Origin: Bdellovibrionales bacterium
Lineage (GTDB): Bacteria; Bdellovibrionota; UBA1018; CAIMNF01
DNA length: 64,000 bases
Direction of reading: 5' to 3'
Assembly (NCBI GenBank): GCA_947502835.1
Contig: CANNBJ010000002.1
Coordinates: forward strand, 62,001 to 126,000
Positions 5,989 through 63,151 of this stretch are shown here, in pieces. Both the position numbers and the translations under genes were made by a program. Positions within the stretch are counted from its first letter, which is position 1, and the number at the start of each line of letters is the position of its first letter. The notes below the pieces were generated by a model. It made no database searches. It was not told the DNA's origin and was given only the letters and a program-made list of their open reading frames with translations.

Positions 5989-5989
5989 T

Positions 5990-6595: not shown

Positions 6596-6634
6596 AGTAA
6601 AAGCATTCTAAATGATGATAGGGTGTCCGTACAT

Positions 6635-15852: not shown

Positions 15853-16031
15853 GTTTCCTGGATCGATTCAAACCCTTGTGCCGGATGAGAGGATCTCGTG
15901 AGGGCACAGGGGTGAATCGAAGGAAAAGGTTCAATAACCGTGGGGATTTCGGACCGGGTACGGTCCGGGATTTCCACACCAGAAAATCGGCATGGATTGC
16001 CGGCCGCGGTTTTGGTCGACTGCGGGTGCTC

Positions 16032-16060
16032 ATGGAGGACGCTTTTTATGGATGGATAGT
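16032..16060 (+). promoter_or_regulatory. Leader with tiny upstream ORF before second flagellin
   Basis: The GGAGG here (16034-16038) lies 22 bases from the flagellin ATG at 16061, too far to serve it directly. It is nine bases from an ATG at 16048 that starts a three-codon ORF (ATG GAT GGA TAG) ending one base before the flagellin start. Translation may depend on re-initiation. The rest of the 249-base gap shows an inverted repeat GGACCG/CGGTCC near 15953-15968 and no clear sigma-28 box. Confidence 0.35.
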
Positions 16061-16894: not shown

Positions 16895-16904
16895 TAAAAA
16901 CATG

Positions 16905-16933
16905 ATTCCGGGGTGGTGATCCCACCCCGGAAT
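16905..16933. terminator. Perfect hairpin between second and third flagellin
   Basis: A 12-pair stem (ATTCCGGGGTGG with CCACCCCGGAAT) and a five-base loop, ten bases after the flagellin stop, followed by TTTAAC. The stem is strong but the T-run is only three, so it may terminate or protect the 3' end of the mRNA. Confidence 0.7.
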
Positions 16934-16934
16934 T

Positions 16935-16962
16935 TAACAAAAACCGGCAAGGATGCCGTGCG
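16935..16962 (+). promoter_or_regulatory. Possible sigma-28-like promoter of third flagellin
   Basis: TAACAAAA, 12 bases, GCCGTGCG. Only the GCCG core of the -10 box is good; the -35 box is weak. The position, about 58 bases upstream of the ATG and directly after the hairpin, is right for a separate flagellin promoter. Confidence 0.25.
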
Positions 16963-17019
16963 ACTCGAGGGATCGGGTCGGATCTTAAGGAGAAGAAAAC
17001 CCATGAATGGAGGCTGACT

Positions 17020-17853: not shown

Positions 17854-17862
17854 AACGGTTCA

Positions 17863-17896
17863 TCCGGAGTGGCCTCCGACCAAAGGCTGCTCCGGA
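17863..17896. repeat. Inverted repeat after third flagellin
   Basis: TCCGGAG and CTCCGGA separated by 20 bases, between the flagellin stop and the next start. There is no T-tract, so it is not a standard terminator and read-through into the RmlD-like gene is possible. Confidence 0.35.
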
Positions 17897-17912
17897 CACC
17901 CGTTGGAGCTGA

Positions 17913-24403: not shown

Positions 24404-25677
24404 TTGTTCGGCTTCTCTTTCATGAAGAGCCTGACCGGGTCCTCAAGGCGGACCCCGAAGAAAATCCTGAGATCAGCCTCGCGCTCCGTCGCACTTCCGT
24501 TCTCGGGAATCACAACCGGGCTTGGAACCGATTCGGGGGTGGTCGGGCCTGAGAATTTGAGACTGTAATTCCTGAAACCATATGACCCCTGCACAAACCA
24601 TCGCTTGAAAAAGGGAATGAAGTCGAACCAGGCAAGAGCCGTTGCCGAGAACCGGGTACTGTACCCGCTCGAGCCTACGGATTCAGTGCCGCGCGAGACC
24701 CCCTCATCCTTGGCGCTCAGAGAAGGATAATACACCCCCTCAAGGCCAAGGCCCTGGAATTTCACGGGGAACTCACCCTTCAAGGGTTTCCAATCGGGGC
24801 GAATGAAGTTCGCCACGAGTTTCAGTCCGATTCCGAGGCCGGAGGTGGTTGTGGAGAGGAGGTTCTCGTCGCCATTCCCGGTGGTGAACCGGTCGGAGAG
24901 AAGAGTGAGCTTGGGAGAAATCTCGAGCTTCCGGTTGAAGAATGGAGGAAGCCGATACTGGAGTCCGAGGATCATCACCCGCTCGCTCGAGGAGACATTG
25001 GTCTGGTAGAATGTGCTGGTCGGAAAGGTTCCGGAGTGCAGGTCAAGTTCGAGCCCCACAGGAAAGAAATCCGAAAAATAGGCGGCATGCAGGATCCCGA
25101 AACGATACCCGCTGGAAGCTTTCGCATTGTTCGCGGGAGTTGTTGTGGATGTGGAAAGATCACCGAACATCAGCCCCCAGCCCACCTCGAAATATCCGGG
25201 CCTTTGATTCAAGGGTTTGATCCCTTTCTCATTCGGGAGAAGAAAATCGGAGCGGTCTTCCTTGTCGGTTTCCGCTGCCCCTGCCGGATCGGAAAGCAGG
25301 GTCGCAAAATCGCCCACTGCCGGGTATTTGATGATCGCGTCCTTGTCGAGATCGACCTTGAGGATCAGGGCCTTGCTTTTTGGGTCTCGCTCCTCCGTAA
25401 GAACTTTTCCCGTGGCAATCACTTCGACCCGGATGCCTTTCTTGCGGAAAAAGAGGATCTGGGTTCCCTCGGCAAACGAGGTCTGATCCGGAAGGAGCAC
25501 GGAAACCACACCCTCGGTTTCTTGAATGACTTTCATTGATCTTCGGGTGAGCTCATCGAGCTTCGGGAGCAAAAATGAGCTTTTTGGATTCTGGATTCCC
25601 GAGGCTTGCTCCTCTCCCTGCGCGGGGTGGGAGAAAAGCAGAAAGACCAAGATTCCCATGAGTGCTGCAGATCTCAT
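24400..25677 (-). CDS. Exported outer-membrane-barrel-like protein
   Basis: About 425 residues from the ATG at 25677. N-terminal hydrophobic export signal (SAALMGILVFLLFSHPAQG). Residues 30-150 look like a beta domain with TSFAEGTQILFFRKK, similar in type to a LysM- or SH3-like fold with FlgT-like character; the remaining 270 residues alternate hydrophobic and polar strands (GYFEVGWGLMFGD, RFGILHAAYFSDF, GLGIGLKLVANFI) typical of an outer-membrane barrel. The ORF can start at 25725, but that adds a non-signal N-terminus; the Shine-Dalgarno is unclear for all choices. It is coupled to the VWA gene, so the two may form one envelope complex. Confidence 0.7.
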   Translation of the reverse strand: MRSAALMGILVFLLFSHPAQGEEQASGIQNPKSSFLLPKLDELTRRSMKVIQETEGVVSVLLPDQTSFAEGTQILFFRKKGIRVEVIATGKVLTEERDPKSKALILKVDLDKDAIIKYPAVGDFATLLSDPAGAAETDKEDRSDFLLPNEKGIKPLNQRPGYFEVGWGLMFGDLSTSTTTPANNAKASSGYRFGILHAAYFSDFFPVGLELDLHSGTFPTSTFYQTNVSSSERVMILGLQYRLPPFFNRKLEISPKLTLLSDRFTTGNGDENLLSTTTSGLGIGLKLVANFIRPDWKPLKGEFPVKFQGLGLEGVYYPSLSAKDEGVSRGTESVGSSGYSTRFSATALAWFDFIPFFKRWFVQGSYGFRNYSLKFSGPTTPESVPSPVVIPENGSATEREADLRIFFGVRLEDPVRLFMKEKPNK

Positions 25678-25824
25678 CCCCTCTATATATATACGGATTT
25701 CCGGGGCGATGCCCATGATAATCATCTGATTTTATTTAATATTTTTATTCCATGGGAACCTCTCAAGTCCCCACGGAGGCATTCCGAAACGATCAACAGG
25801 CATATGAAGGTCAGGGTCGACACA

Positions 25825-46999: not shown

Positions 47000-47983
47000 A
47001 TGATCCGCATCCCACACGGAATACGCCTCGCTGGAGTTGCCCTTGTCCTCACTCTTCTGATTCTTGTTACTCTCAAGCGGAACGAAAAATCCAAACCGAA
47101 CGCCGCGGAAGGCGATCTCCGCATTGCAGAAAATATTTTTGATGCCCGGGAAAAGGAGGCAACCCTGAAAATGGGTGGCAGACTCGGTCTCCACATTCTC
47201 CAAAATGATGTTGCCTCTCTTCAAACCGAGGAAACACTCTCCCTGTCGGATGAGGCTTGGTTTCAAACCCTTCGTGCATTGTTCATTGCCGGAAAGGCAA
47301 ATGGACTCCGCCCGGAAACCCTTGATCAGTTGCTCATGCAATCTCTCATCCGATTCGAGAAGAATCATTCGACCAAAAACGCCAAATCAACATTCCATCA
47401 GACCGAGATCGAACGCCTTCCCTCCCCCCTGCCTGAATCGGGCGCTCAAAAGATTCTGCAAGGATGGCTTTTCAACCCGAAACAACCGCTCCCCCTGAAA
47501 AGACTCGCTCTCTTCAAGCTGGCAGCCCAAACTCCGGATCCTTCACCCCGGGTCATCGAGGCATTTGTTTCCATTCTTCGCGGCTCTGATCCTTCTCCTG
47601 ATTTCATTTCCGTGATTGAGGCAGTCCGGAGCCCATCAGTTCGAAAGACCTTGTTGCAGGCAGTTCTTCCCCGGACTAAGTCAATGACAAAGTCGGCGAG
47701 AGTTGAAGTAGTGAAGGTTCTCTCACGAAATACCCGTTTGATTCCGGAGGACTACAAAAAGGTTCGCTCCATGGCCGCAAGCCTGATCAAGGCCGATTCC
47801 GAAATGGAAATCGAATCCGGCCTCAGGGCAATGTCCACGCTCATTGAATATCGGGCCCTGGATCCGGGCGAATCGGATACCTTGAAAACCTGGCTTGATG
47901 GGATTCACGAGGCGAAAAGGACCCCGCTCATTCGTGCCGCGATTCAAGGAATCTTAGTAAAAATTGGTCGAAAACCCGATTAG
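47000..47983 (+). CDS. Membrane-anchored helical (HEAT-like) protein
   Basis: 327 residues. An N-terminal hydrophobic helix (GIRLAGVALVLTLLILVTL) with Lys/Arg after it, so either an uncleaved anchor or signal. The remainder is a series of amphipathic helices (LPLKRLALFKLAAQ, VRKTLLQAVLPR, ARVEVVKVLSR, LIRAAIQGILVKIG) resembling HEAT-type repeats. It begins ten bases after the stop of giant lipoprotein 3 with GGTGGA upstream, so it belongs to that operon and may help in export or assembly of the giants (inference). Its 3' end overlaps the convergent gene by 30 bases. Confidence 0.75.
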   Translation: MIRIPHGIRLAGVALVLTLLILVTLKRNEKSKPNAAEGDLRIAENIFDAREKEATLKMGGRLGLHILQNDVASLQTEETLSLSDEAWFQTLRALFIAGKANGLRPETLDQLLMQSLIRFEKNHSTKNAKSTFHQTEIERLPSPLPESGAQKILQGWLFNPKQPLPLKRLALFKLAAQTPDPSPRVIEAFVSILRGSDPSPDFISVIEAVRSPSVRKTLLQAVLPRTKSMTKSARVEVVKVLSRNTRLIPEDYKKVRSMAASLIKADSEMEIESGLRAMSTLIEYRALDPGESDTLKTWLDGIHEAKRTPLIRAAIQGILVKIGRKPD

Positions 47984-48649
47984 CACCTGGGGACCGTTGT
48001 AACTCACAACTCCGTCACCTTGTTCTTCGGCCTTCCATGCCGCAAAACGATAGTGTCCGCTCAAGAACATCACGAAGTCGCGTCCCACGGGGTAATCCAC
48101 TCCGATTCCAAACGAGGTTTCGATGATCTTCGAGGCAAAATACGGCCAGCGACCCGGGAAGTTGAAGTCGGGATCGGAGGGCGCGGGCGCGCTGGAAACC
48201 GAGAGCTTTGTCGGCGTTACCGAGACGGCGAGAAATGGACTCACCCTGGTTTTCACCACCTCGGAGAAGTCATCACCTACCTCTCGACTTGAAGAAAGTC
48301 CTAGGGGATACAAGAGCGCGCTGAAACCAACCCCTGCAATGGAAAAAAACCCATAACTGCTTCCGAGATCTGCAAGGAAGTTGACCCCGATCCTTGTTCG
48401 AATCGAGGGCAAATCCCAGAGGAACATCGGATTCACGGTGAGGTAGTTGCCAAGGGATGTGGCTTCCGGAAAAATGCTCCCCGCAGTGAATTTCAAAGGG
48501 GCATAGCCCAAGCCAAGCCGAAACGTGGGAACATCAATCAACGCGTGTGACGGGGTTGAGACGAGAAGAGTCAGAAGGATGGCAAGGGTGCGGACCGGGA
48601 AGTTCTTCACTCGATCTTGATTTTGGAACAACCCCCATGAAAAATCCAT
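47954..48649 (-). CDS. Predicted outer-membrane beta-barrel protein
   Basis: Up to 231 residues. Signal peptide VRTLAILLTLLVSTPSHA, then alternating strands (FRLGLGYAPLKF, RIGVNFLADLG, ETSFGIGVDYPVG, FVMFLSGHYRFAAW) and a C-terminal aromatic end FSTNFY, as recognised by the BAM complex. The ATG at 48649 gives a long polar n-region; a GTG at 48610 would give a tidier signal and is a good alternative. Divergent from the next gene, convergent with the HEAT-like gene. Eight strands would fit the length; ligand unknown. Confidence 0.7.
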   Translation of the reverse strand: MDFSWGLFQNQDRVKNFPVRTLAILLTLLVSTPSHALIDVPTFRLGLGYAPLKFTAGSIFPEATSLGNYLTVNPMFLWDLPSIRTRIGVNFLADLGSSYGFFSIAGVGFSALLYPLGLSSSREVGDDFSEVVKTRVSPFLAVSVTPTKLSVSSAPAPSDPDFNFPGRWPYFASKIIETSFGIGVDYPVGRDFVMFLSGHYRFAAWKAEEQGDGVVSYNGPQVLIGFSTNFY

Positions 48650-48683
48650 AGAGTTTTACCGGTTGTCTGCGATACTAGGGAGC

Positions 48684-49301
48684 GTGATCCGGAAGATTTC
48701 CCTCATCACGATATTCCTCCTTTTCTCGTCCATGGATGCACAGGCAATCAAGACCGCCTCCTCGTTCGACCTGAGCTACGGACTTGCCGGTTATACGGTG
48801 GATGCTTTCGATTCGACAGGGGCACTTGCCGAGAGTCGAACTCTCTCTTCGAAAACGGGATTTCAAATCGACTACAACGTGGCCCTTTTCGACTATCGAA
48901 CCGTCGCGAGCCTGTCCTTTTCCCAATTTCAAACTTCGAACATCGGTGAAATTCCTCTGACCCGTCTTGCCATCGGGGGCAGCTACCATTTCATTCGAGT
49001 GAATGGACAGCGACTCATTCTTGACAGCGATGTCGAGAGCAAGGTCTGGGGCATCTCGCCTGCGGTCGAAGTGACCTTCGGAATCAACAAGCTTTCCATC
49101 AATGACACCGCGGACTTCCAATTCACTTCCTCGCTTTTCGACATGACGCCAAAACTCTCTGTGGAGATTCCGGTCACCTCAAAGATCCTGCTGATCCTGA
49201 AGGGTGGCTATTTTTTGACGCTATTTAGCAGCGCCTCTCCCTTCAAGATCAATGTATCCGGCTCGGTATTCAACCTCGGCTTCAAACTGACCACCTTGTA
49301 G
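48684..49301 (+). CDS. Predicted small outer-membrane beta-barrel protein
   Basis: About 205 residues from the GTG at 48684 (a TTG at 48663 is possible). Signal peptide (IRKISLITIFLLFSSMDAQA), then strands of alternating pattern: SFDLSYGLAGYTVDAF, FQIDYNVALFDY, RLAIGGSYHFIRV, KLSVEIPVTSKILLILKGGYF, ending in VFNLGFKLTTL. OmpA/OmpW-sized barrel. The sequence is unlike that of the divergent barrel gene. It ends nine bases before the sigma-28-like promoter of the motor operon. Confidence 0.65.
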   Translation: MIRKISLITIFLLFSSMDAQAIKTASSFDLSYGLAGYTVDAFDSTGALAESRTLSSKTGFQIDYNVALFDYRTVASLSFSQFQTSNIGEIPLTRLAIGGSYHFIRVNGQRLILDSDVESKVWGISPAVEVTFGINKLSINDTADFQFTSSLFDMTPKLSVEIPVTSKILLILKGGYFLTLFSSASPFKINVSGSVFNLGFKLTTL

Positions 49302-49346: not shown

Positions 49347-50324
49347 ATGGAACTTTTGAAGAAAATCTCTGTTTCAATGCTTGTGATCCTCGGGTGTGCA
49401 AACACGGCCGGGACCAGCTTTGCATCCGATACCATTACCGCTGCGGAAATTGAACATTTTGAACATACGTGGGAATCCTGGACCCGCGACATTGTGAAGG
49501 AAATCCATCCCGGATTGAAACTCACCGTGATTGCAAGGATGGAATTCAGTCAAAGTCCGGAACAACTCGAGACGTATGAAGAGATGAAAACGATCGGACA
49601 CCTGCCCGGCCTCCCCGAAGTGAACGATCCGAACTACACACGACCACTCGACAGTCCGCTCTACGCCTTAATTGCCAGAAAACACATTCGCGTGATCCTT
49701 CATGAAGCCATTCCCGCAGCAGAAAAGGCACTGATCGAGGAAGTCATCCGCGCCAAAATGAAGATCCTGTCCGGAGATCAATTCAGCACGGAAATTATTC
49801 CCGTGGCGGAAAAAACCGGACCTGAGCGGAATCCGTCCGCTGCGGTCATTCTTCTTGCTTTGCTTGGTCTCGGCGTTGCGATGATTGTCCGTCGTCGGGT
49901 CCGCCTCGAAACCACACCCCTACCTTCTTCCGCACCCGCAAAAATCACCCCAACGGAGGTGCCTGCGCTGGTATCTCCGACACCGGCGGCAAGGAGTCCG
50001 ATTCCCGCAAATCACCAGATCATGACATCCGATCCTTCCGCACGCCGGCTTGCCTTGTCCCGTGAAAAAATCGATGTCCTCGCAAAGGCTTCGCTCAATT
50101 GCTCAACGCGTTTCACAAATCAGATTCTCGGCGGGCTCGATCAAGCCCGCTTTGACCTTGTGAACCAGTGGTTGGTACAGAATCAAAGAATCGTGACCCT
50201 TGCCGAATCCAACTATGCCCGCCTGTTGCTCTCGGCCCGAATCCAGCAGATTGAGAATCAGAAACTCATTTCCGCAATTTCTTCGTTGAAAACCAGAACG
50301 AAGAATCAGGAGAACTCCCTATGA
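49347..50324 (+). CDS. Membrane protein with FliF-C-like periplasmic domain
   Basis: 325 residues. Signal (about 1-27), periplasmic domain (28-165), one membrane helix (AVILLALLGLGVAMIV, near 170-186) and a basic, helical cytoplasmic tail of 140 residues with no FliG sequence. The periplasmic part, ending KHIRVILHEAIPAAEKALIE and then VIRAKMKIL, aligns with the same region of the next gene product and with the pattern of the FliF C-terminal ring-building region. A start at TTG 49356 would place GGAAAGG nine bases upstream and give MKKISVSMLVILG, better than the ATG at 49347 where the GG-rich site touches the start. Coupled to the next gene by ATGA. Ring or adaptor role inferred. Confidence 0.8.
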   Translation: MELLKKISVSMLVILGCANTAGTSFASDTITAAEIEHFEHTWESWTRDIVKEIHPGLKLTVIARMEFSQSPEQLETYEEMKTIGHLPGLPEVNDPNYTRPLDSPLYALIARKHIRVILHEAIPAAEKALIEEVIRAKMKILSGDQFSTEIIPVAEKTGPERNPSAAVILLALLGLGVAMIVRRRVRLETTPLPSSAPAKITPTEVPALVSPTPAARSPIPANHQIMTSDPSARRLALSREKIDVLAKASLNCSTRFTNQILGGLDQARFDLVNQWLVQNQRIVTLAESNYARLLLSARIQQIENQKLISAISSLKTRTKNQENSL

Positions 50325-52150
50325 AATTGAGCTTGAAAGTGAAAGTCGCCATCATGGCACTTCTGAGCCTGGTCCTGTTCCAGGCCACCTTGACCCTGAG
50401 TTTCGCACAACCTGCGACCGCACCGAAGGTTCGCGAGGAGTCGACTTCGCTCGAGAATCTTTATCAGGAAAAGGTCCGCTCGATTCTCGACAATCTTGTC
50501 GCCCCGGAGGATTACACCCTCGTAATCAGTGCGACCATCAAGAACGACGAGCGCAGGCTCAAGGAATACAGCGACACGATTGAACGAAAGTTCATGCCGG
50601 GTCTCCCGATCAATGATCCCTCTGCATTTGCGGATGCGAACAACCTCCTTCTCGAGCTGAAGCAAAAGGTCGACATCCAGATCATCCTCACGGAGAACGT
50701 GCCTGCCGACAGGGACACGATTGTGAAAGACATCATTCGAAAGAAGCTCCACCTGAGCGAAGAGTCAGGGGATTCAATCTCCGTGGTTCGTGCGGCTAGG
50801 ATTGTCCCCTTTCCGAAGCCCTCCGAGCAGCGTTGGTTTCCTGAGCTATCCACAAAAATGATCGCCTTCTGGGTGCTCGTGGCCATGATGGTCCTGACCG
50901 GAATCCTTCTTTGGGATCAGCGCCGGAAAGAAAAAGCCAAGCAACAGGAGCGGGCCGAACAGGCATTCCTCATTGAGCAAAAACGTGCCCATGAGGAGGC
51001 GAAGGCGGAAGAGGAAGTCACCCCGGAAGCCGAGCCCACCCCTGTGGAAGACGGCTCTCTCACCGAAGAACAAAAGAACGAACTTGAGATCAAAATGGCA
51101 TTCGAGAAGAGCGAGATTCACAAGCTCTGCACCGAGTACGGCCCGATTGTCGCCAAAGCAGTTGAAGAGTTCATGGTTCAGGGACATGTTCGCGAGACCG
51201 TGATGGTCATGGAGGCGATTGGATGGCATGAGTCCAAGCGGCTGTTTCGCGACCTCGACACCCGCTCCTGGGCGAAGATCGGCTCCACCCTTCGAACTCG
51301 CCAGGGTGAGCCCTCCATCGTCGAATCTTTTGAGGCGGCCCACTATTTCCATCGCTTCGCATTGTCGTATGTACTGGAGCGGACAGCAAAAGAAGACGGA
51401 AACCCATTCGGTTTCGTATTCAAACTCAACGACAACCAGAGAATCGATCTTCTGAATCGGGAGGCTCCGGATAAGATCGCCTTGATCGGTGTCTATTGCA
51501 CCGGACCGCAAATGAACGACTTCTTGAGAGGCCTCGAGAACTCAAAGCAGAACGAGATCCTCTACCACCTTACCCGGATCAAACAGCTCCCGGAGACAGA
51601 AGTGAAAAGTGGCGTGCTCAGCTATCTTGCGAGCCTTGAGCGGATCAAAAAAGATCCATCCGTGTTTGCCGACGGGCCGATGCTTGCTGCTGAATTCCTG
51701 AAGAGTCTGCCTGCGGGCCGCGAGGAGGAGTTGATCCAATACCTCTTTGATCAGCATCCTGCCGAGGCGGAAAAACTTCGCCGCGTACGTGTGATGTTTC
51801 AGGACATTCCCTACTATCCCGCAGAGTTCACCCGCAAGGTCATCGAGAATCTGGAGTCGGACCTGATCCAGCGGGCCCTCACCGGCTATGACCGCGGGTT
51901 CACCGACGAGTTCCTGCAGCTCCTGCCAAGCAAACGGGCAATGATGATTCTGAATGACCTGCTCCACGGGGATTCGAATGTTCCGCAATCACAGTGTGCG
52001 GAGAGCAGACGTGAGATTTGTTCCCTGCTGGAGAGCCATTTCGAGGCGCAAAAATTCAGGGTTGCCGACTACTGGACGGACCAGGACGGGGGCAGCCGGG
52101 TGGAACATGAGACCACCCGGGAATATGAAGAGACAAAGAAGATTGCATGA
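50321..52150 (+). CDS. FliF-FliG fusion-like rotor protein
   Basis: 609 residues. Signal (1-29); periplasmic domain (about 38-165) with EKVRSILDNLV, VDIQIILTENVPADRD and the ESGDSISVVRAARI ending typical of the FliF C-terminal region (RGDSVTV-type); membrane helix MIAFWVLVAMMVLTGILLW near 185-203; an acidic linker; then about 250-600 resembling FliG. The FliG likeness: ETVMVMEAIGWHESKRLFRDL (FliG-N like), REAPDKIALIGVY (EHPQ-like middle motif), MFQDIPYY, DLIQRALTGY and LPSKRAMMILNDLL (torque-helix region of FliG-C, KRAAEML in FliG). So a truncated FliF and FliG appear as one chain. Family assignment is by eye. It is followed after 22 bases by motA. Confidence 0.75.
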   Translation: MKLSLKVKVAIMALLSLVLFQATLTLSFAQPATAPKVREESTSLENLYQEKVRSILDNLVAPEDYTLVISATIKNDERRLKEYSDTIERKFMPGLPINDPSAFADANNLLLELKQKVDIQIILTENVPADRDTIVKDIIRKKLHLSEESGDSISVVRAARIVPFPKPSEQRWFPELSTKMIAFWVLVAMMVLTGILLWDQRRKEKAKQQERAEQAFLIEQKRAHEEAKAEEEVTPEAEPTPVEDGSLTEEQKNELEIKMAFEKSEIHKLCTEYGPIVAKAVEEFMVQGHVRETVMVMEAIGWHESKRLFRDLDTRSWAKIGSTLRTRQGEPSIVESFEAAHYFHRFALSYVLERTAKEDGNPFGFVFKLNDNQRIDLLNREAPDKIALIGVYCTGPQMNDFLRGLENSKQNEILYHLTRIKQLPETEVKSGVLSYLASLERIKKDPSVFADGPMLAAEFLKSLPAGREEELIQYLFDQHPAEAEKLRRVRVMFQDIPYYPAEFTRKVIENLESDLIQRALTGYDRGFTDEFLQLLPSKRAMMILNDLLHGDSNVPQSQCAESRREICSLLESHFEAQKFRVADYWTDQDGGSRVEHETTREYEETKKIA

Positions 52151-54098: not shown

Positions 54099-54143
54099 AG
54101 TACCGAAGGTCTTTGGACGATAGGCCGTCAGGAGGCTTTGATC

Positions 54144-55022
54144 ATGATGAATATCCACCGGGTACCCGGTCTTGCGCTGGCTTTGGCCCTACTCGTTTCG
54201 GGATGCGCAACCCGCTATACCGTCAAAACCTATCCTGCAGGCGCTCAAGTCTACACGCGCGATTTGAATTCCAATGAGAAAAAGCTCGTGGGTGTGAGCC
54301 CGGTTGAGATCGAAGGAGAGGCCAAACTCGGAGATGTTTTTTTTCTCGTTGTGGAGAAGCAGAACTATCGACCCAAGGAAATCCTGGTCCGTGCATCCGA
54401 GGGAGAGACCCTCGCCATTTCTGCGAAACTTGATCCCATGACCCAAGAGGAAATGGAGAACGCAAACAAGCTTGCAAAAAAAGAGGACGACAAGAAAGAG
54501 CCCCAACAACCACCACAGGATCCAAAGAAAAAGAAAGACAAGGATCTTGAAGAGTTGATCGAGGAGCTGAAGCTTCGCGTGGCTCTTCTTGAGAACACCA
54601 CAAGTTTCTACAAGGATGCCATGTTCTCCGCTCGGTTTGCTGGGAATGGTCAGGCCAAGTTTGATCGCGACCGCAACGACAAAGTCATCGACAACATGTT
54701 TCAGGCCCAACAAGCGATCGCGGCCAAGGATTTCACTCGTGCGAACAAGCTGATTGACGATGCAATTGAGAAGGATGAGTACCTTGCGCAAGCATGGTTG
54801 CTGAAGGGGTCTCTCCGGTACCTTCAAAATGACTTCCAGGGAGCGAAAGCCGCTTGGGAGCGTTGTTTGAAGATCGACCCGTATGACAAGGTCGCCTACA
54901 ACTATCTTGGCCGCGTGTATGAGAAGCTCGGCTTGCCGAGGCTCGATCGGCCTGCGGCAGCGCTTCGATACCCTGCTTCGACCGTGGAGATTGAGAAAAA
55001 GTCCCAAAAAACAAAGCCCTGA
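54144..55022 (+). CDS. PEGA/TPR lipoprotein
   Basis: About 292 residues. GGAGG eight bases upstream of the ATG. Lipobox LVSGC at about 20-24, then a PEGA-like beta domain (YTVKTYPAGAQVYTRDL to LDPM, 27-100), a Lys/Glu/Pro-rich linker with PQQPPQDPKKKKDKD, a coiled coil (LEELIEELKLRVALLENT), and TPR repeats near 190-270 (AQAWLLKGSLRYLQNDFQGAKAAWERCL). It follows motB by 45 bases, so it is probably part of that operon and may scaffold the motor in the envelope, as PEGA/TPR proteins do in some gliding systems (inference). Confidence 0.82.
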   Translation: MMNIHRVPGLALALALLVSGCATRYTVKTYPAGAQVYTRDLNSNEKKLVGVSPVEIEGEAKLGDVFFLVVEKQNYRPKEILVRASEGETLAISAKLDPMTQEEMENANKLAKKEDDKKEPQQPPQDPKKKKDKDLEELIEELKLRVALLENTTSFYKDAMFSARFAGNGQAKFDRDRNDKVIDNMFQAQQAIAAKDFTRANKLIDDAIEKDEYLAQAWLLKGSLRYLQNDFQGAKAAWERCLKIDPYDKVAYNYLGRVYEKLGLPRLDRPAAALRYPASTVEIEKKSQKTKP

Positions 55023-55090: not shown

Positions 55091-56983
55091 ATGTTGCGAT
55101 TTTTATTCTTGTTTTTGCTTTTCAACCCCACACTCTCCCGGGCCGCGAAGGATGCGGCAAGCATCCCCCAGGATGAGGCCCGGAGCGCTCCGGCCATTGA
55201 CCTTCTGATGGAAGGAGAACCCGTGGATCGGGATCATCTCCTCGACCTCATCCGCCGGAATCGCATCGACTCTTCCACACTTGAGCCGCAAACAAGCCGC
55301 ATCTATCGGGGCGGCAGCTTGAGCCCCGTTGAGATTCCGGATTTGCCCTATCCCGGAGCGACACTCTCCTCCGCCCCTGACGCAGTTGTGTTCGATTCCT
55401 TCCTGCCGGGCACCTCGGGCCTCGTTCGAGCGCGCGTGAAAGCCGTGTCCGATCCCGGAGCCATGTTTCAAATGAATCTGAGTCTGGACACGCATGCGGC
55501 CCTTGCGAGAAACGCCCTCCTCAGAAAACTCGGCTACGCCATCCCTTCCCCGAAATACTATTCCCGACTTCGTGTCCGCTTTTCCTCGGTGGAGGAACGT
55601 GACCGATTCCTGGATCGCCTCTCAAGTGACACCTTGACGGCCCGAAGCCGCTGGATTCCGGAAAGCGAACCTGTTTCAGCCACCGATCCCTCGGTGGTCC
55701 TGCAGGACCTTGTTCTTGAGCCTGCATGGATTGAAGTTCCACCGCTCCACTGGGGGATCCTCACTGCGGAGGCGCTCAATTCGAGGCGCTCCCTCCGGGC
55801 GGTACTCGTTCCCCTCACGCTTCTCGAAATTCCGGAGAGTGTGAACCTCTTTTCCTTTGAACCCGCAAAGATCTTCAACGAGAGCCTCGTATTCAAGCGG
55901 CCGGGAGCAGAGGCATTCCAGAATGAAACGACCGTCGGCGATGCCCGATGGATTGCGAGAAAAATCGGAACCCTTTCAAGGAAGGACTGGGAGGAAATCA
56001 TCCGTGCCGGACATTATCCCGGGGACATCTCCGCACTGATTCTCGAAAAAACCCTTGCCCGGGTGAACCGCCTGATGGAGCTCCTGTCTCTTCGGGAGTT
56101 TCAGGCGTTCAAGTACGATTCCCATTTGACCCTCGGCTCGGTCATCAACGGAAAAGCGACACGTGAAAAAGTGGATGGCTATGCTCTTCGATTCACCTAT
56201 GGCGATCCGAAGAACCCCCTCCGCACCTCGGAACTTGCCCGGTTCCTCGGAGTCACCGCGCTCAATGCGGCCCTGAATTTCGGTCTCGAGCAGGCAAACA
56301 GGGCATTGCAGTTCCAGACCCCGGCTGACCGGATTGATGACCATCGCGAAAAGACTCTCGCCCGTGCACTGGAGCATTACCAGAATCATCCGAATGAGCC
56401 GTTCGTTCAACCCTTCGAGGTCTGGGGCGGGCCCGTCGGGGGCATGAATCTGAATGCCTCCCGGAACGTCATGACGGGCACCTATTACGGATCGGAAAGT
56501 CAGATCCAACTTGTCGATGCATTCTCGATTGCGGCAGATGTCGGAGGATTCTTCGGGGTCTCCGGGATTCCGAAAGTTGGTGTTGCGGGGATCCCGGGAA
56601 TCCAAGCAAGCCGCAATTACGTTCACGTGAAGCCGCTCCCCGATCTTAAAACCGCATGGAAAACCAACTGGGCAAATGTGCTGGTTCCCGGTTTCATGGT
56701 TCACCTTTCGCGGATCCTGAAAGGAGAGGCGGATCAAGACGCAACGTCCGCTGTAAAGGAATTCCTTGAAGCCATGAATCCGGGCGAGCTTTTCATCGTC
56801 ACGGATTCCCTTCTCGGTGCGGGCTCCGTTTCGGTCCAAGTCCCCATCGGAGCCCTGATCGGGTTCCTTCCCTCGTTCGGGGCCCTCGAGGGGTCGGCGT
56901 CCATGGGTGGAAGCTATGGTGTTCTTTCCCGAACCACCATCACGCGCACCGAGGACGGAATCCAGTTTACCTTCAACGTGTGA
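55091..56983 (+). CDS. Large exported protein, unrecognised family
   Basis: 630 residues with a signal peptide (LRFLFLFLLFNPTLSRA). No domain recognised. The N-terminal 200 residues are Arg/Asp-rich with RLRVRFSSVEERDRFLDRL, resembling a serpin- or inhibitor-I9-like propeptide strand pattern (weak). Later parts include a run of helices (RNRIDSS, LEHYQNHPNEPF) and a beta-rich C-terminus (GALIGFLPSFGALEGSASMGGSYGVLS). The stop overlaps the next start as GTGA, so this and the following two genes are translated as a unit that ends with a subtilase. It might be a chaperone, substrate or inhibitor of that protease (inference). Confidence 0.7.
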   Translation: MLRFLFLFLLFNPTLSRAAKDAASIPQDEARSAPAIDLLMEGEPVDRDHLLDLIRRNRIDSSTLEPQTSRIYRGGSLSPVEIPDLPYPGATLSSAPDAVVFDSFLPGTSGLVRARVKAVSDPGAMFQMNLSLDTHAALARNALLRKLGYAIPSPKYYSRLRVRFSSVEERDRFLDRLSSDTLTARSRWIPESEPVSATDPSVVLQDLVLEPAWIEVPPLHWGILTAEALNSRRSLRAVLVPLTLLEIPESVNLFSFEPAKIFNESLVFKRPGAEAFQNETTVGDARWIARKIGTLSRKDWEEIIRAGHYPGDISALILEKTLARVNRLMELLSLREFQAFKYDSHLTLGSVINGKATREKVDGYALRFTYGDPKNPLRTSELARFLGVTALNAALNFGLEQANRALQFQTPADRIDDHREKTLARALEHYQNHPNEPFVQPFEVWGGPVGGMNLNASRNVMTGTYYGSESQIQLVDAFSIAADVGGFFGVSGIPKVGVAGIPGIQASRNYVHVKPLPDLKTAWKTNWANVLVPGFMVHLSRILKGEADQDATSAVKEFLEAMNPGELFIVTDSLLGAGSVSVQVPIGALIGFLPSFGALEGSASMGGSYGVLSRTTITRTEDGIQFTFNV

Positions 56984-58338
56984 AGAACGGATCCCTGGAG
57001 CTGCAGGCGGATTCCCGGTTTGTCATTCGCCTGTTCGAGGCCGCACAAAGCATCTATTCCGGGAAGGCTCATACCGAAGCGTACGTGCTGCCTGAAAAGT
57101 TTGATACCGAAGAGCAGGGAAGAACCCTTCAAAGGGACTTGAAGAAGATCCTGGTTTGGAATCTCACGGATGACCTTCGTGAGGATTTCGATCCCTATGT
57201 CCTCGATCACCGAACACGCGGCAAACGCCTGCGATTTGGAATCGGACCCTTCTCTTGGGTGCGCCGACACAATTTTCATCGCATTGAAATCACTCCACCC
57301 GCGGATCCTCAGGGTCGTTACCGTCCCGAGGACCACCAGCGCACCGTGGTCGAAGGTCAACTCACCCGAATCCTCGGGACCGACCCCTGGGGCTTTCTCG
57401 GAAGCGCAGCCCGTGCACTTGAACCGCTACTTGACCTTGGTTCCGGATTCAAGGGCGATGATCCATCTTCCAACTTCCTCGGGAAATCGCGCTCCTTTCT
57501 CGTCAATACCCAGATTGAAACCACTCCCGGGAAAACCGAGGCACCTTTCATGAAGATTGAACGCGCCTATACGGGTTGGTCCCTTCGGAAAAACCGGCTG
57601 CTCAGACTGATTCGCAACCTTTCGTCTGAAGTTGCCCAGCACCAACCCGGTTCGTCCCTGATCAATCCCGATGAGTTTTCCCAAACCCGAAAAATCCAGG
57701 CCTATCGTCTCGGCTGGAGTCTTTTGGTCTATCCAAAGGGGATTGATCGCCTGATTGAAATCCTCGACAGTCGAAAAACAGGGACCCTTCACGCGCAAAA
57801 CCTTCTGATTTCGCAAATGGGAAGGGAAGCCTATCACAAGTACTGTGAGGCGCGAGGCCTCAAGGAGGTTGCTTTTCGCGTCTCCCTCTCAAGAAATGAT
57901 CTCGATCTGCACTACGGGACGATCCTGGAATCTTCGCGGGGGGAGACCACCTACCTTGGCTGTGTGACCCCCTTCATGCTTGAGATCTACAATCTTCGCT
58001 CGAGATTCCAAAGCGGCAAGTCCCCCCTCTTCATGCCTGCAGGGGATGAGGACCGGACAAAGGAGAAAATCCGCATCCTGAACCGGATTGCCTCCGCCCT
58101 CTCAAGAACAGGGGACGCGGGGGATTTGATCAGTCTCGTCGGGCGCGAGAACTCTTTCTTTCAGGCCCGTGTCAGCGGGTATCGGACCCGTGATGAGAAT
58201 GGCGACTCCGACTATTTCTCCAACACCATCGGACTCATCGATCAGGAGATCCTGACTGGACCTTTGTCCGACATCGCAGCAAGCAGCAGGATTTCGAGCA
58301 ATGAGATCGAGGCGAGGTACCTTTCGAATGGCTATTGA
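56980..58338 (+). CDS. Large protein, unrecognised family
   Basis: 452 residues, starting at a GTG that overlaps the previous stop. No signal peptide at the annotated start and no domain recognised. The sequence is rich in Arg/Asp/Glu with segments such as HNFHRIEITPPADPQGRYRP and LRFGIGPFSWVR, and a helical middle (RKNRLLRLIRNLSSEVAQ). It contains no catalytic signature I can name. If the previous product is exported, this one may be read as a separate polypeptide that meets it only through context. The end overlaps the subtilase start by 11 bases. Confidence 0.65.
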   Translation: MKNGSLELQADSRFVIRLFEAAQSIYSGKAHTEAYVLPEKFDTEEQGRTLQRDLKKILVWNLTDDLREDFDPYVLDHRTRGKRLRFGIGPFSWVRRHNFHRIEITPPADPQGRYRPEDHQRTVVEGQLTRILGTDPWGFLGSAARALEPLLDLGSGFKGDDPSSNFLGKSRSFLVNTQIETTPGKTEAPFMKIERAYTGWSLRKNRLLRLIRNLSSEVAQHQPGSSLINPDEFSQTRKIQAYRLGWSLLVYPKGIDRLIEILDSRKTGTLHAQNLLISQMGREAYHKYCEARGLKEVAFRVSLSRNDLDLHYGTILESSRGETTYLGCVTPFMLEIYNLRSRFQSGKSPLFMPAGDEDRTKEKIRILNRIASALSRTGDAGDLISLVGRENSFFQARVSGYRTRDENGDSDYFSNTIGLIDQEILTGPLSDIAASSRISSNEIEARYLSNGY

Positions 58339-61024
58339 TCTCCGGTCGATCCTTCTGCTTCTTCTTCCACTTGCCGCCCAGGCCACGGATCTCTCCGGCC
58401 TTTCATGGGGACTTCATAACGCGGGAGAAAGCCAGCAGATCCTGATCGATCATTACACCTCGGGCGTGATCCAGGGAGTTGCGGGTGAGGACATTCGTCC
58501 GATCCGGGCGGACTCCTTGCCCCGGATTCCGGTCGTGGTTGCGGTTCTCGATACCGGTGTCGATGAGTCCCATCCCGCGCTCTCGGGGTCCCTGGTGCTT
58601 CCGGGCTTCAATGCAATCGACGGCTCCTCGAAAGTCAAGGACTCCCACGGACATGGCACCCACGTCTCCGGTATCATTGCCGGCAGGCGAACCGATCGGG
58701 GTTTTGAAGGTGTCTCCCGAAATGCCCTCATTCTTCCGATCCGTGTGATTCAAAGCGGAACGAATGCTCCGATCCGCCCTCAGGAGCTTGAGGGAGCAGC
58801 GGGAACCGCTCTCACGGAAAATGTGGCAAAGGGAATCCATCATGCCATTGAGCGCGGAGCACGCATCATCCACCTCTCCCTTGCTTGGCCCGCTTCGATT
58901 CGAAGCAAAAGCGTGGATGATTCAATCGCGCTTGCGGAGAAAAAAGGCGTTCTGGTCGTTGCATCGGCCGGGAACGATTCGACACAAGCCATGGTGTACC
59001 CCTGCTTGTATGCGAGTGTGATTTGTGTGGGCGCACACGGCCCGGATGGCGCGTTCACGCATTTCTCGAATCATGGACCGATGGTGGACATTCTGGCTCC
59101 CGGAGTTTCGATTTTAAGTGCATGGCCCCTCTCAAAGAACCCCGTCATGTTCGCAGGACAAACCGGATATGAGTTCCGAAACGGCACATCGATGGCCGCC
59201 CCTTTTGTCACAGGAGCTCTTGCGGAATTGATCTCGCTCGGGATTCCTCCAAACGAAGCAAAAAACCGGCTCTTCCTTTCTTCACGATCCACCCGCACGA
59301 CATCCCTCTTTCGCACTGAACTCGGGAGATTGTCCGGCGAACGGCCGGATCCCGTCCGAAAGCAGAGTCGTTTCGGCAACCTGGATCTGGAGCGCGCAGT
59401 GTCCCTGAAACCGGCGCCCCTGATTGTCCCTGCAAGGAAAGATCCGGTTTCAGTCGACTGGCGTGGCAAAAGTCGAACCGAATCCCTCGTGATCCCTTGG
59501 ATCAACCTCTGGACGGAGGCTCACGATGTTGAAATCCTCGTTGCCGGGAGGCGTTTTCCATTCAAGCGGATCAGGACAGGAGAGCGGGTTCGGGTGTCTT
59601 TGGACATTCCCGTTTCAAAGGATTCCGAGTCCCAATTGCTTCTGCCGGCGAAAGTCATGATCAAGGGACGGGAGGAGGTCACATTTTCGATTCCCGTCTC
59701 CCTAGTGCACGTGATTGAAGAGAATGCGATTCCGGACGCGGCGATCATCCATGCGTTTCCGGATTTCCGGCCCACGGAAACCATGAGTATTCGTTCCGTG
59801 ATTCCCGTGGCACCGCTGACTACTCACGGACACCTCTTTCTCGAAGATGAGTCATCAGGACTCAAGGCACATCTCCTTGCCAAGGGAAACCGTCCTCGAA
59901 GTGCTCTTTTGAAGGGTCGCAGATCCGCGGATCTTCTGAATTGGTACGCGCTTCCCGATGGCAGCTTCCAGGCTCTTTTTGCGATCGAGAGCGATGCAGA
60001 CTCGAGACCCTTCTTTCAGTTTGTCCGCCTAGATCCGGAGTTGCGGGAAGTCGGGGAGACGAAACTGGGCACAGAAACGACCGTATTCCCCGAGAACTTC
60101 CGATTCGTCCTTTCAGACGGAGCATACCTCCCTCACTTCATCTCACACGGATTCACACCGAAACCGGATCTCCCCCCCTTTGATCCCTGGAACCCCGAGT
60201 TCCGCGACGAGAGGCGGATGAGGTTCTACCGGCTCGGGTCGGACGGCCTGCGAGTGATTCCCCTTGAGGCGTCGGAGACTCCTCTTTTGTTTCTCGGGAG
60301 CGATTCCGTGATCGTCTCCTCGGGATCCGGGTACCTTCAAACCTACAGAATCCTCACCTTCAAGGATGGCCGTGTCCTGGAACGCAAGGACCTAGAGCTC
60401 CCCGCTTATCGACTGCTCGCAGGTCTTGTCGAAACACGACCTGCCATTCCTCTCGACGGCTCGTCCCCGGATCGGCTTTTCCTTGTCGGGCGTTCCTCTC
60501 CCGGCAACCTCAGGATTTCAAGCATTTCCAGAAACTCTCCCGGGACTTTTGGAACGGACCGGATCCTGGCTGCCCCATCCTCTCTTGATTCCCTGATGGG
60601 CGTTGCCGGCGTTTTCATGGACGGAGGAAAAGCATCCTTCTTTGCCGAATCCCATTACGATCTGATCTATCTTCCCGCAGACGGCACTCGCCCCTTTTCG
60701 AGTTCACTGAACCGCTACAGCTACATTCCCTCCATGATCACCTCGAAGAATCTCTTTCCCGTTCCGGTGGCCCAGGGCTACGGCAAACCATCGCTCCCCG
60801 GGATCTATTCCCCGGCAAGCCTGCTTACGGACCAGATCTCGGAAATCAGGATCGCGGATCCGGATGCCCGAAGAATCCTGACTCCGCTGGAGTTCAGAAT
60901 GAGGGCCGGAGGCTCTTGTCGCAGTATCGGAAATCTCCTTCCCGATGAAAGCGGAGGCGAATCAAGAATCGCATTTTGGTGCGGCGAGAAGCTGGTTGAA
61001 ATTCCGATCAGAATTCGCGAGTGA
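58328..61024 (+). CDS. Secreted subtilisin-like serine protease (S8)
   Basis: 898 residues from the ATG at 58328 with a signal peptide (LRSILLLLLPLAAQAT). The catalytic triad is intact: Asp in VVAVLDTGVDESHP near 73, His in DSHGHGTHVSGIIAG near 108, Ser in FRNGTSMAAPFVTGA near 287, and the oxyanion Asn in VVASAGNDST near 213. There is almost no propeptide between signal and domain. The last 550 residues are beta-rich with repeated hydrophobic strands and may form a propeller or adhesive domain. Last gene of the run 55091-61024; in a predator such proteases would attack prey or process the neighbouring proteins (inference). The 3' end overlaps hutH by 17 bases. Confidence 0.92.
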   Translation: MAIDLRSILLLLLPLAAQATDLSGLSWGLHNAGESQQILIDHYTSGVIQGVAGEDIRPIRADSLPRIPVVVAVLDTGVDESHPALSGSLVLPGFNAIDGSSKVKDSHGHGTHVSGIIAGRRTDRGFEGVSRNALILPIRVIQSGTNAPIRPQELEGAAGTALTENVAKGIHHAIERGARIIHLSLAWPASIRSKSVDDSIALAEKKGVLVVASAGNDSTQAMVYPCLYASVICVGAHGPDGAFTHFSNHGPMVDILAPGVSILSAWPLSKNPVMFAGQTGYEFRNGTSMAAPFVTGALAELISLGIPPNEAKNRLFLSSRSTRTTSLFRTELGRLSGERPDPVRKQSRFGNLDLERAVSLKPAPLIVPARKDPVSVDWRGKSRTESLVIPWINLWTEAHDVEILVAGRRFPFKRIRTGERVRVSLDIPVSKDSESQLLLPAKVMIKGREEVTFSIPVSLVHVIEENAIPDAAIIHAFPDFRPTETMSIRSVIPVAPLTTHGHLFLEDESSGLKAHLLAKGNRPRSALLKGRRSADLLNWYALPDGSFQALFAIESDADSRPFFQFVRLDPELREVGETKLGTETTVFPENFRFVLSDGAYLPHFISHGFTPKPDLPPFDPWNPEFRDERRMRFYRLGSDGLRVIPLEASETPLLFLGSDSVIVSSGSGYLQTYRILTFKDGRVLERKDLELPAYRLLAGLVETRPAIPLDGSSPDRLFLVGRSSPGNLRISSISRNSPGTFGTDRILAAPSSLDSLMGVAGVFMDGGKASFFAESHYDLIYLPADGTRPFSSSLNRYSYIPSMITSKNLFPVPVAQGYGKPSLPGIYSPASLLTDQISEIRIADPDARRILTPLEFRMRAGGSCRSIGNLLPDESGGESRIAFWCGEKLVEIPIRIRE

Positions 61025-62504
61025 GGGTTTCGATCTTTGCAATGGCCTCATAGAAAGGCGCATCCTCTTCAAAAAAAGGCACCTGCGAACGGATTCGCGC
61101 TTTGACTTTTTCGAGCTTCGATGTCGTCTTGAGGGGGGAAAGCAGATCGAGCCCCTGCGCACCCGCAAGCAACTCCATCGAGAGCACCCGTCTCACGTTG
61201 GTGATCACCTTCAGGCACTTTCGTGCGGCCCACGCACCCATGCTGACATGGTCCTCCTTGTCGGCGGAGGTGGGAATCGTATCCACCGAAGCCGGATGAC
61301 AAAGGGTTTTGTTCTCACTCACAATGCTTGCCGCTGCGACCTGCACAATCATGAAGCCGCTGTTGATTCCCGACTTTCTCATCAGGAAAGCAGGGAGATC
61401 GGAAATGGCCGGATTGATCAGCTTTTCAATCCTCTGCTCGGAAATCGAGCCGATCTCGGCCATGGCAATGGCGAGATAGTCCATGGCAAGCGCGAGGTAC
61501 TGTCCATGGAAATTCCCTCCGCTCAGAATCCTGTCGTCATCGACAAAAACAAGGGGATTGTCGGTCACGGAGTTGATCTCGCGCTCGACAATCCCGCGCA
61601 CGAAGCGAACGGTGTCGAGAGTCGCGCCATGGACCTGCGGAATGCATCGCAGGGAATAGGGATCTTGAACCTTGCCGCAGCCTTCATGACTCTTGGCAAT
61701 CTGGCTCTTGCCCGGGTGGGAGAGCAATTCACGGAACTGCGAGGCCACTTCCACCTGTCCCGGATGGGGTCTGACCGAGTGGATTCTTTCATCAAACGCA
61801 GTTGTCGTCCCCCGAAGCGCCTCGAGAGTCATCGCTCCCGAGTGGAGCGCCACCCTCAACAGCTGCTCAGACTCGATCACCGCAAAGACTGCAAGGGCCG
61901 CCATGAACTGGGTCCCGTTGATCAATGCAAGACCTTCCTTTGGACCAAGGACCACAGGCTTCAACTTCCTCATTTTGAGCGCGCGCGATCCATCCACCCA
62001 CTCTCCATCCACCAAAGCCCTGCCTTCGCCAATCAACACGAGGGCGAGATGCGCAAGCGGGGAGAGGTCACCGCTCGCCCCCACACTTCCCTGCTCGGGA
62101 ATGTAGGGAATGATGTCGTGATTCAAAAGATCCAGGAGACCGTTCACCACAGGGAGACTCACGCCTGAGTTTCCCTGCGTAAGAGTTGCCGCACGAAGAA
62201 GCACCATTGCCCGTACGAGCCCGGGTTCCAACGGATCCCCGGTTCCCACGGCGTGGGACCGGAGCAAATTGACCTGGAGTCGGGCAAGATCCTTTTCCTC
62301 AATCCGAACATTCGACAGCAATCCGAAACCGGTATTCACTCCATAGATGGTTTCACCCGAGACCGCCTTCTTCAGGAGATAGCGGTTTGCCTTCTCGATT
62401 CTTTTGATGGCCGAATGGGCAAGCCGCACCCTCACGCCTCCTCCGGAGATCCGATGCACATCCTCCAGAGTCAACTCCGATTTGCCGAGCTCAAATGTTC
62501 TCAT
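61008..62504 (-). CDS. hutH: Histidine ammonia-lyase
   Basis: A 498-residue MIO-dependent lyase converting histidine to urocanate and ammonia. The MIO tripeptide Ala-Ser-Gly is in GSVGASGDLSPLAH near 143; YGVNTGFG near 53, LRSHAVGTGDPL near 80, FLINGTQ-type motif LALINGTQFMA near 190, and the PQVHGA/LSGGNFHG segments are present. The start is the ATG at 62504, which shares bases with the rpe stop (ATGA); the ORF extends upstream into rpe but without conserved sequence. The first step of the Hut pathway, whose HutG-like enzyme is at 1444-2334. Close coupling to rpe and fmt is unusual. Confidence 0.95.
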   Translation of the reverse strand: MRTFELGKSELTLEDVHRISGGGVRVRLAHSAIKRIEKANRYLLKKAVSGETIYGVNTGFGLLSNVRIEEKDLARLQVNLLRSHAVGTGDPLEPGLVRAMVLLRAATLTQGNSGVSLPVVNGLLDLLNHDIIPYIPEQGSVGASGDLSPLAHLALVLIGEGRALVDGEWVDGSRALKMRKLKPVVLGPKEGLALINGTQFMAALAVFAVIESEQLLRVALHSGAMTLEALRGTTTAFDERIHSVRPHPGQVEVASQFRELLSHPGKSQIAKSHEGCGKVQDPYSLRCIPQVHGATLDTVRFVRGIVEREINSVTDNPLVFVDDDRILSGGNFHGQYLALAMDYLAIAMAEIGSISEQRIEKLINPAISDLPAFLMRKSGINSGFMIVQVAAASIVSENKTLCHPASVDTIPTSADKEDHVSMGAWAARKCLKVITNVRRVLSMELLAGAQGLDLLSPLKTTSKLEKVKARIRSQVPFFEEDAPFYEAIAKIETLTREF

Positions 62505-63151
62505 GAGATCACCGCCTTCAATTCGTCCCATGCCTTTTTTCTGTCCTTTGCACCGAAAATCGCAGAACCCGCGACGAACACCTCGACTCCCGCATCCTTG
62601 CATGCCTTCGCGGTCACCGCATTGATTCCGCCATCAATTTCAATCAGAAAGGAAAGGCCCTTGGCTTTCTTCATTTCGGACAGCCATTTCACCTTTTCCA
62701 GCGACTCCGGCATGAACCCCTGCCCCCCGAACCCGGGTTCCACACTCATGACCAGAACGAGATCCAGTTCGGACAGATAGGGCTCGAGCATCGCTGCGGG
62801 AGTTGCGGGCTTGATGGAAATACCTGCCTTTTTCCCCGATTGGCGGATCATTCTCAGGAGCTCAGGCACCCGCTCCACCGCTTCCAGGTGAAACGTGATC
62901 ACATCCGCACCCGCACGCAAAAACCAGGGAATCATCTTCTCGGGCTCTTTGACCATGAGGTGGCAATCCAAGGTGCTCCTGGTTTTTGAGCGGATGGAAT
63001 TGACCACGACCGGACCGATGGTCAGGTTCGGAACAAAATGTCCGTCCATCACATCGACATGCAGCCAAGTGGCACCAAAGCCCTCGACCTCCTCGATTTC
63101 ATTTTGAAGTCGTGAAAAATCCGCCGACAGCAATGAGGGTGCAATGATCAT
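62501..63151 (-). CDS. rpe: Ribulose-phosphate 3-epimerase
   Basis: A 216-residue TIM-barrel metalloenzyme of the pentose phosphate pathway. Signature sequences: SLLSADFSRL near 6, HVDVMDGHFVPNLTIGP near 32 (metal His/Asp), DCHLMV near 64, VLVMSVEPGFGGQGF near 135 and EIDGGIN near 173. Normal length. Its start overlaps the fmt stop and its stop overlaps the hutH start, both as ATGA, so the three are strictly coupled. It supplies xylulose-5-phosphate for transketolase, also in this window. Confidence 0.96.
   Translation of the reverse strand: MIIAPSLLSADFSRLQNEIEEVEGFGATWLHVDVMDGHFVPNLTIGPVVVNSIRSKTRSTLDCHLMVKEPEKMIPWFLRAGADVITFHLEAVERVPELLRMIRQSGKKAGISIKPATPAAMLEPYLSELDLVLVMSVEPGFGGQGFMPESLEKVKWLSEMKKAKGLSFLIEIDGGINAVTAKACKDAGVEVFVAGSAIFGAKDRKKAWDELKAVIS

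Follow-up and report, generated by a model that had tools for sequence, protein, structure and literature searches.

Introduction

FliG forms the torque ring of the flagellum, and we know of no FliG-driven motor outside this organelle. A covalent link between FliG and the membrane-embedded part of the rotor was described in 2016 in the Chlamydiaceae, where FliF periplasmic ring domains, a transmembrane (TM) helix and a FliG part belong to a single, natural FliF-FliG fusion protein (PMC4768692). In Myxococcus, the AglRQS-Glt machinery couples envelope proteins and the VWA surface adhesin CglB to a MotA-type motor driven by ions, and in the Bacteroidota the GldLM/type IX gliding motor, a 5:2 motor, moves surface adhesins (PMC13104615, PMC9389320). 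Here we analyse a stretch of 64,000 nucleotides from a Bdellovibrionales bacterium (genome G000; GenBank assembly GCA_947502835.1, contig CANNBJ010000002.1, positions 62,001 to 126,000 of the forward strand), hereafter the window, in which genes for two FliG-like rotor proteins, one short and one long, lie directly upstream of the genes for a MotA/MotB stator (Table 1).

The plan of the long rotor protein, with FliF-type periplasmic ring domain, TM helix and FliG part, has a precedent in the Chlamydiaceae fusion, which can be likened to it by description only. The latter has two RBM (ring-building motif) domains and the M region of FliG, and its host is not thought to be flagellated and retains few flagellar genes (FliF, FliL and FlhA are named), with no mention of MotAB in the accessible text of that report (PMC4768692). 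By contrast, the system of the window combines one RBM3 with FliG N, M and C domains, a second, short partner and a dedicated MotAB, usually in genomes with a full flagellum encoded elsewhere. We found no earlier description of a full-FliG fusion with a partner and its own stator in the literature, most subscription papers being outside our reach.

Two predicted membrane-tied FliG proteins in tandem

The long protein, 609 residues encoded exactly at positions 50321-52150 of the forward strand, carries all the motifs on which a preliminary description of the locus had founded its claim of a FliG-like C-terminal region on a membrane-anchored protein, and both parts of this claim hold. FliG_C (Pfam PF01706) is matched at residues 475-576 with 34.6 bits (E 2.5e-8), exceeding the gathering score of 23.3, whereas FliG_M (PF14841), matched at residues 376-426, stays just below its cut-off (21.5 versus 25 bits), although the fold of this region is matched (4qrm_D, Z 9.0). 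The NCBIfam model for fliG, TIGR00207, gives 40 bits (E 3e-10), well short of the equivalog cut-off of 226.7; Thermotoga maritima FliG (3ajc) aligns to residues 361-578 in a phmmer search against PDB (E 1.4e-8), and a profile of 19 fusion orthologues is related to canonical FliG of the same order and phylum with an hhalign value of 98.2% (E 2.7e-14). By these profile comparisons the likeness to FliG is well above chance and the homology firm. Unlike FliG, which is a cytoplasmic protein free of membrane anchors, the long protein starts with a hydrophobic signal peptide ending in SFAQ and has a TM helix at about residues 178-200 followed by RRKEKAK, as read from both sequence and model, so that about 125 folded periplasmic residues, a single TM helix, basic residues and a charged linker all precede the FliG part. 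Neither of the two rotor proteins in the window matches the FliF profiles PF01514 or PF08345, and RBM1 and RBM2 are not present in the long protein, where residues 34-159 are all that lies between signal peptide and TM helix; FliF itself is encoded in one copy elsewhere in G000.

The periplasmic domain is modelled as alpha-beta-(insert)-beta-alpha-beta in an AlphaFold2 model of the long protein that was built on 10 aligned sequences (mean predicted local distance difference test, pLDDT, 72.7; predicted template modelling score, pTM, 0.33). In comparisons with Foldseek and VIA-align, this domain matches FliF RBM3 (8z5v_A) with Z 12.6 and a root-mean-square deviation (rmsd) of 2.4 A over 95 aligned residues, further FliF RBM3 entries giving Z 9.9-11.6. 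The best unrelated folds, those of Ohr/OsmC, are lower and looser (Z 9.7, rmsd 4.0; Z 7.8 for the short protein) and were set aside. On the cytoplasmic side, residues 287-592 match complete FliG (8umx_B, Z 13.9) and residues 492-581 match the C domain of MotAB-bound FliG (8ucs_H, Z 10.4, rmsd 2.0). By sequence, the RBM3 region resembles FliF weakly, with hhalign values of 38-44% (E 2e-4 to 3e-4), while none of seven control families without relation to it exceeded 4.6%; the first, shallow alignments stayed below 3%, more sequences, in combined or fusion N-domain alignments, raised the value to 17-44%, and the N-domain of the short protein alone gave 7%. Since the sequence match is weak, the link to FliF is drawn from the structural one. 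The periplasmic domain is thus predicted to fold like the FliF ring-building motif RBM3 and the cytoplasmic part like a whole FliG with N, M and C domains, which makes the earlier suggestion of a torque ring covalently tied to the inner-membrane ring structurally plausible.

The gene directly upstream encodes the short protein, for which Pfam gave no match above cut-off. Its N-domain and the N-domain of the long protein are homologous (hhalign 99.4%, E 2.7e-21), and its model, based on an alignment mixing short-protein rows with N-domains of the long protein, has a pLDDT of 79.8, with values mostly above 87 in the N domain and above 91 in the C domain. Residues 24-153 match FliF RBM3 (Z 10.7, rmsd 2.6) and residues 218-307 match FliG_C (3ajc; Z 12.3, rmsd 1.7); Foldseek E-values are about 0.01-0.1, the top FliG rows having a probability of 1.00. 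Because short and long proteins each match the RBM3 and FliG folds, the locus appears, as judged from the models, to carry two RBM3-TM-FliG proteins in tandem. The preliminary description mentioned neither the same plan in the upstream gene nor the MotA and MotB genes directly downstream. Of 10 loci from the window's genus and G015, 9 carry the short protein and the tenth stops at a contig edge; in the Bdellovibrio-type loci it was not found (0/10). A third FliG_C gene of the Bdellovibrio-type genome G190 (828 kb; L160, 8106-9011, forward strand) was considered as its counterpart there but dismissed, since its sequence looks like that of a soluble FliG_C paralogue ending in a coiled coil, a kind of protein found in Bdellovibrio-type genomes.

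A dedicated stator and its possible contacts with FliG

Sequence features of MotAB/PomAB stators are present, namely the MotA_ExbB profile in MotA and, in MotB, the plug, the OmpA domain and the TM aspartate, the channel-aspartate site reading SYADMMTLL. In 17 of 20 fusion loci, the stretch retrieved also contains MotA and MotB, and contig ends truncate two of the three loci that remain; in the MotA tree the group formed by the cassette proteins is weakly supported (53/88).

Charges at the rotor-stator interface were counted in the alignment of 19 fusions, with what we take to be the E. coli numbering. The equivalent of R281 (R539) is R or K and that of D288 (D546) is D or E in 19/19 fusions, whereas the D289 equivalent is hydrophobic, L or I, in all 19, the K264 equivalent is basic in 4/19 and the R297 equivalent is not conserved. 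The Arg/Asp torque pattern announced in the preliminary description is therefore borne out at two of five positions, R281 and D288, and fails at K264, D289 and R297; both a significant FliG profile match and conserved charges in orthologues are nonetheless in place. Its reading of EAPD (residues 381-384) as a replacement of the FliM-binding motif EHPQ was correct, EHPQ being found in 0/19 fusions and its E alone kept in all. On the stator side, the position of PomA R88 (E. coli MotA R90) holds R in 10/11 and K in 1/11 cassette MotA proteins and lies opposite the acidic residue conserved at the site of D288, and the equivalent of E98 is not acidic in the window. In E. coli, R90 forms salt bridges with D288-D289 and E98 with R281 (PMC12505986); because the R90-type residue and the D288 position are kept and the E98 partner is not acidic, one of these two pairs could still form in the cassette.

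The loss of D289, K264 and R297 and the absence of a Pfam match for the FliG_C-like domain of the short protein would also suit a non-rotating tether or brake, in which the FliG domain would just hold or gate MotA and pass on no torque. We regard such a device as improbable, given that the R281 and D288 equivalents are kept in 19/19 fusions, that RBM3 domains build rings in FliF and that the rotor-stator set is retained across families.

Further MotA-type genes lie outside the cassette. A second MotA/MotB pair of G000 (L158, 8134-10007, reverse strand) has a MotB ending in apparent PDZ repeats rather than OmpA, and no rotor gene was seen beside this pair; within the window, an ExbB/TolQ-type match to MotA_ExbB (5990-6595, reverse strand) lies on the strand opposite to a transketolase open reading frame (5675-8641).

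Conserved neighbourhood and proposed mechanism

Around the rotor and stator genes stands a conserved set of envelope and surface proteins (Table 1), most of the neighbours missing across the 20 fusion loci being cut off by contig or stretch ends. No other flagellar gene lies in the conserved cluster, from which FliF RBM1-2, FliM/FliN, rod, hook and export are absent. Its products resemble the flagellar FliF/FliG rotor with PomAB/MotAB in the RBM3 and FliG folds, the PomA-like MotA and the plug and OmpA domain of MotB; they differ from it in the missing parts and in the covalent attachment of FliG to the membrane.

Table 1. Features of the rotor-stator cluster in the window, with examples of a related FliG protein from other loci
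Feature	Position	Strand	Comment
Secreted VWA-domain protein	23006-24403	-	DxSxS metal-site motif; conserved in Bdellovibrio-type loci
Secreted 441-residue protein	24400-25725	-	probably outer-membrane barrel
Giant lipoprotein, FG-GAP repeats, 1793 residues	25878-31259	+	
Giant lipoprotein, FG-GAP repeats, 2155 residues	31246-37713	+	
Giant lipoprotein, 3087 residues	37727-46990	+	
Membrane-anchored helical protein, 327 residues	47000-47983	+	counterpart in Bdellovibrio-type loci; hhalign 97.3% between the two groups
Small outer-membrane-barrel-like protein 1	47954-48649	-	conserved neighbour, homologous to barrel 2; putative barrel, from sequence
Small outer-membrane-barrel-like protein 2	48663-49301	+	conserved neighbour, related to barrel 1
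Short rotor protein, 325 residues	49347-50324	+	RBM3-like 24-153, TM, FliG_C-like 218-307
Long rotor protein, 609 residues	50321-52150	+	signal peptide 1-29, RBM3-like 34-159, TM ~178-200, charged linker, FliG N/M/C 287-592
RBM3-like periplasmic domain, residues 34-159	50420-50797	+	VIA match to 8z5v_A
FliG N-like domain, residues 287-360	51179-51400	+	structure only: 287-592 on 8umx_B 4-331
FliG_M-like domain, residues 361-450	51401-51670	+	EAPD at 381-384 in place of EHPQ
FliG_C domain, residues 475-576	51743-52048	+	R539 at 51935-51937, D546 at 51956-51958
MotA, PomA-like stator subunit, 270 residues	52173-52985	+	Pfam MotA_ExbB 83.3 bits; PomA 8brd E 1.2e-31
MotB, 369 residues	52989-54098	+	plug segment, OmpA-type peptidoglycan-binding domain
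Lipoprotein with PEGA-like and TPR segments	54138-55022	+	kept in 14/20 fusion loci
Two open reading frames, 630 and 452 residues	55091-58338	+	single protein of 1054-1097 residues in relatives
Secreted subtilase-family protease	58301-61024	+	conserved neighbour within genus
Variant B examples, positions in their own loci	L057 5321-7651; L055 6480-8729; L056; L058; L166-L168		

An own rotor-stator machine is the simplest account of a cluster that holds RBM3, FliG torque domains and a dedicated stator and no other flagellar genes, and we lean towards a dedicated machine, separate from the flagellum, that acts on outer-membrane and giant surface proteins. In such a machine, RBM3 would bring short and long proteins together as a ring in the inner membrane, beneath which the FliG torque domains would lie (C alone in the former, N-M-C in the latter). 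PomA-type MotA/MotB units, anchored to peptidoglycan by the OmpA domain of MotB, would push the FliG ring using the ion gradient. Having no FliM-binding motif, rod, hook or export, the ring might transmit its movement across the periplasm to the TPR lipoprotein and the barrels of the outer membrane, from where it would reach the VWA protein and the giant lipoproteins with FG-GAP repeats and so move surface adhesins. From the sequences, predicted folds, conserved neighbourhood and intact stator features established above, we infer the assembly of a ring, its torque, its coupling to the outer membrane and any use in surface motility or prey contact. The most specific version, a self-contained, flagellum-free rotary machine in which MotAB turns a heteromeric RBM3-TM-FliG ring that moves giant integrin-like surface lipoproteins, falls in our estimate slightly short of an even chance. 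If true, it would be the first known FliG-driven motor beyond the flagellum and, in Bdellovibrionota, a force generator that has so far been missing for movement on surfaces or contact with prey. Found in genomes that have a normal flagellum as well, it would imply that the rotor-stator pair is usable as a stand-alone machine.

Relation to the flagellum

The full fusion occurs in 9 of 12 genomes of the window's genus and in 26 of the 368 genomes of the phylum, including G265, whose copy is divided between two contigs; any match in the fusion search at E <=0.001 was obtained in 40/368 genomes, and in those without the full fusion it was to canonical FliG, a short FliG or a single domain. One scan of a contig collection, our sole look beyond the phylum, returned 9 loci, all from metagenome-assembled genomes titled Bdellovibrio sp., Bdellovibrionales, Oligoflexia or Proteobacteria. 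The fusion is not required for a flagellum, since 291 of the 316 genomes with FliF do without it and 24/26 carriers (all but G006 and G281) have a separate canonical FliG.

The same co-occurrence, with FliF present in 25/26 carriers (all but G281), would be expected of a flagellar accessory module, that is, a membrane-tied FliG ring at the flagellar base recruiting a second stator for high load or inside prey. A flagellin gene (15992-16894), followed by a related open reading frame (17020-17853) and an RmlD-type sugar gene (the group spanning 15992-18788), lies about 30 kb from the rotor genes. In addition, work by Morehouse in 2011 is said to have found that all three motAB pairs of Bdellovibrio bacteriovorus HD100 contribute to swimming. 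Expression of motA2 and motB2 is altered in fliL mutants of this species (PMC11323537), which also favours a flagellar role. Speaking against it are the cluster without any other flagellar gene, the many FliF-bearing genomes that have no fusion, the loss of EHPQ, because of which no link to the C-ring via FliM is expected, and G281, which has the fusion and no detected FliF or other FliG, though at a completeness of only 82%. Taken together, we consider an accessory module rather unlikely and prefer a machine separate from the flagellum.

A fusion lies at 2913.4-2915.2 kb in G190, three of whose MotA-type genes are located at 128.6 kb (forward strand), 2919 kb and 3172 kb (both reverse). In order and strand these fit the three motAB pairs of HD100, Bd0144, Bd3021 and Bd3254. 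With motA2 and motA3 designating bd3021 and bd3254 (PMC11323537), G190 would be HD100 and the cassette stator MotA2B2, and the machine seems to be present in the laboratory strain B. bacteriovorus HD100. FliL-Bd1076 is reported to bind MotB3 but neither MotA2 nor MotB2, and motA3 and fliL were not replaced by other alleles of motA and fliL even when these were raised (PMC11323537); these data would fit a MotA2B2 that serves another rotor.

Comparison with gliding machineries

To our knowledge, neither FliG nor RBM domains occur in the AglRQS-Glt machinery. Unlike the cassette stator, Myxococcus AglQ and AglS are TolR-like (PMC3169522), and the accessible parts of the sources on GldLM/type IX describe no FliG-type rotor, in which this motor, too, is unlike the system of the window (PMC13104615, PMC9389320). 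A link to Agl/Glt was sought and rejected: hidden Markov models of the cassette barrels, VWA protein, lipoprotein and 441-residue protein matched nothing in L148-L150, which we took, from their position, as the three Agl loci of G190.

The dedicated machine could be the gliding motor of Bdellovibrionota itself, a narrowing of our preferred reading that overlaps with it rather than competing. According to a 2026 review, the machinery by which Bdellovibrio glides has yet to be identified and relies on neither flagella nor pili (PMC13104615), and the cluster holds a motor, envelope parts and adhesin-like lipoproteins. However, in the Bdellovibrio-like genus g89 just 9 of 24 genomes carry the fusion, and published data favour the Agl/Glt clusters, whose proteins increase as the predator enters and leaves its prey (PMC12546842, PMC3169522, PMC9140294). 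Because these expression data point to Agl/Glt for gliding during predation, we hold the narrower claim to be doubtful.

The same expression data count against a dedicated machine moving surface proteins, as do several observations on the cassette. Three torque charges are not kept in the fusions, and the E98 partner in the MotA of the window is not acidic; the model of the long protein draws on 10 sequences, with a pTM of 0.33, and its RBM3 region resembles FliF weakly by sequence. At L143 (G249), a full-length fusion well inside its contig, the 20 kb retrieved contain no MotAB. Co-occurrence with the flagellum is no proof of independence from it, the sole carrier lacking FliF being the incomplete G281, and the reported role of all three HD100 motAB pairs in swimming would include the cassette stator.

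Related FliG proteins and other genes

A tree of the FliG M and C regions (39 rows) has one group for each of four kinds of protein, the 19 fusions, 7 of variant B, 3 short FliG_C and 10 canonical FliG, the fusion group standing apart from the canonical FliG with a support of 100/99. Variant B, encoded mostly by open frames of 759-919 residues in 40/368 genomes, all within the window's order, resembles the fusion in having a signal peptide, a periplasmic part, a TM helix and FliG M-C, beside its own MotAB and TPR lipoprotein; it differs in its separate FliG clade and in two periplasmic repeats with paired cysteines. G000 also encodes a 146-residue protein that is almost wholly FliG_C (79.9 bits) and has no membrane anchor (C1:80689; L053, 8675-9115, reverse strand), with similar proteins in G001, G005, G006, G009, G011 and G015.

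Within the cluster, the two open reading frames at 55091-58338 overlap in different frames, which may reflect a real split or a sequence error. The cluster is adjoined by a gene for an aromatic amino acid lyase (650.6 bits; 61008-62603, reverse strand).

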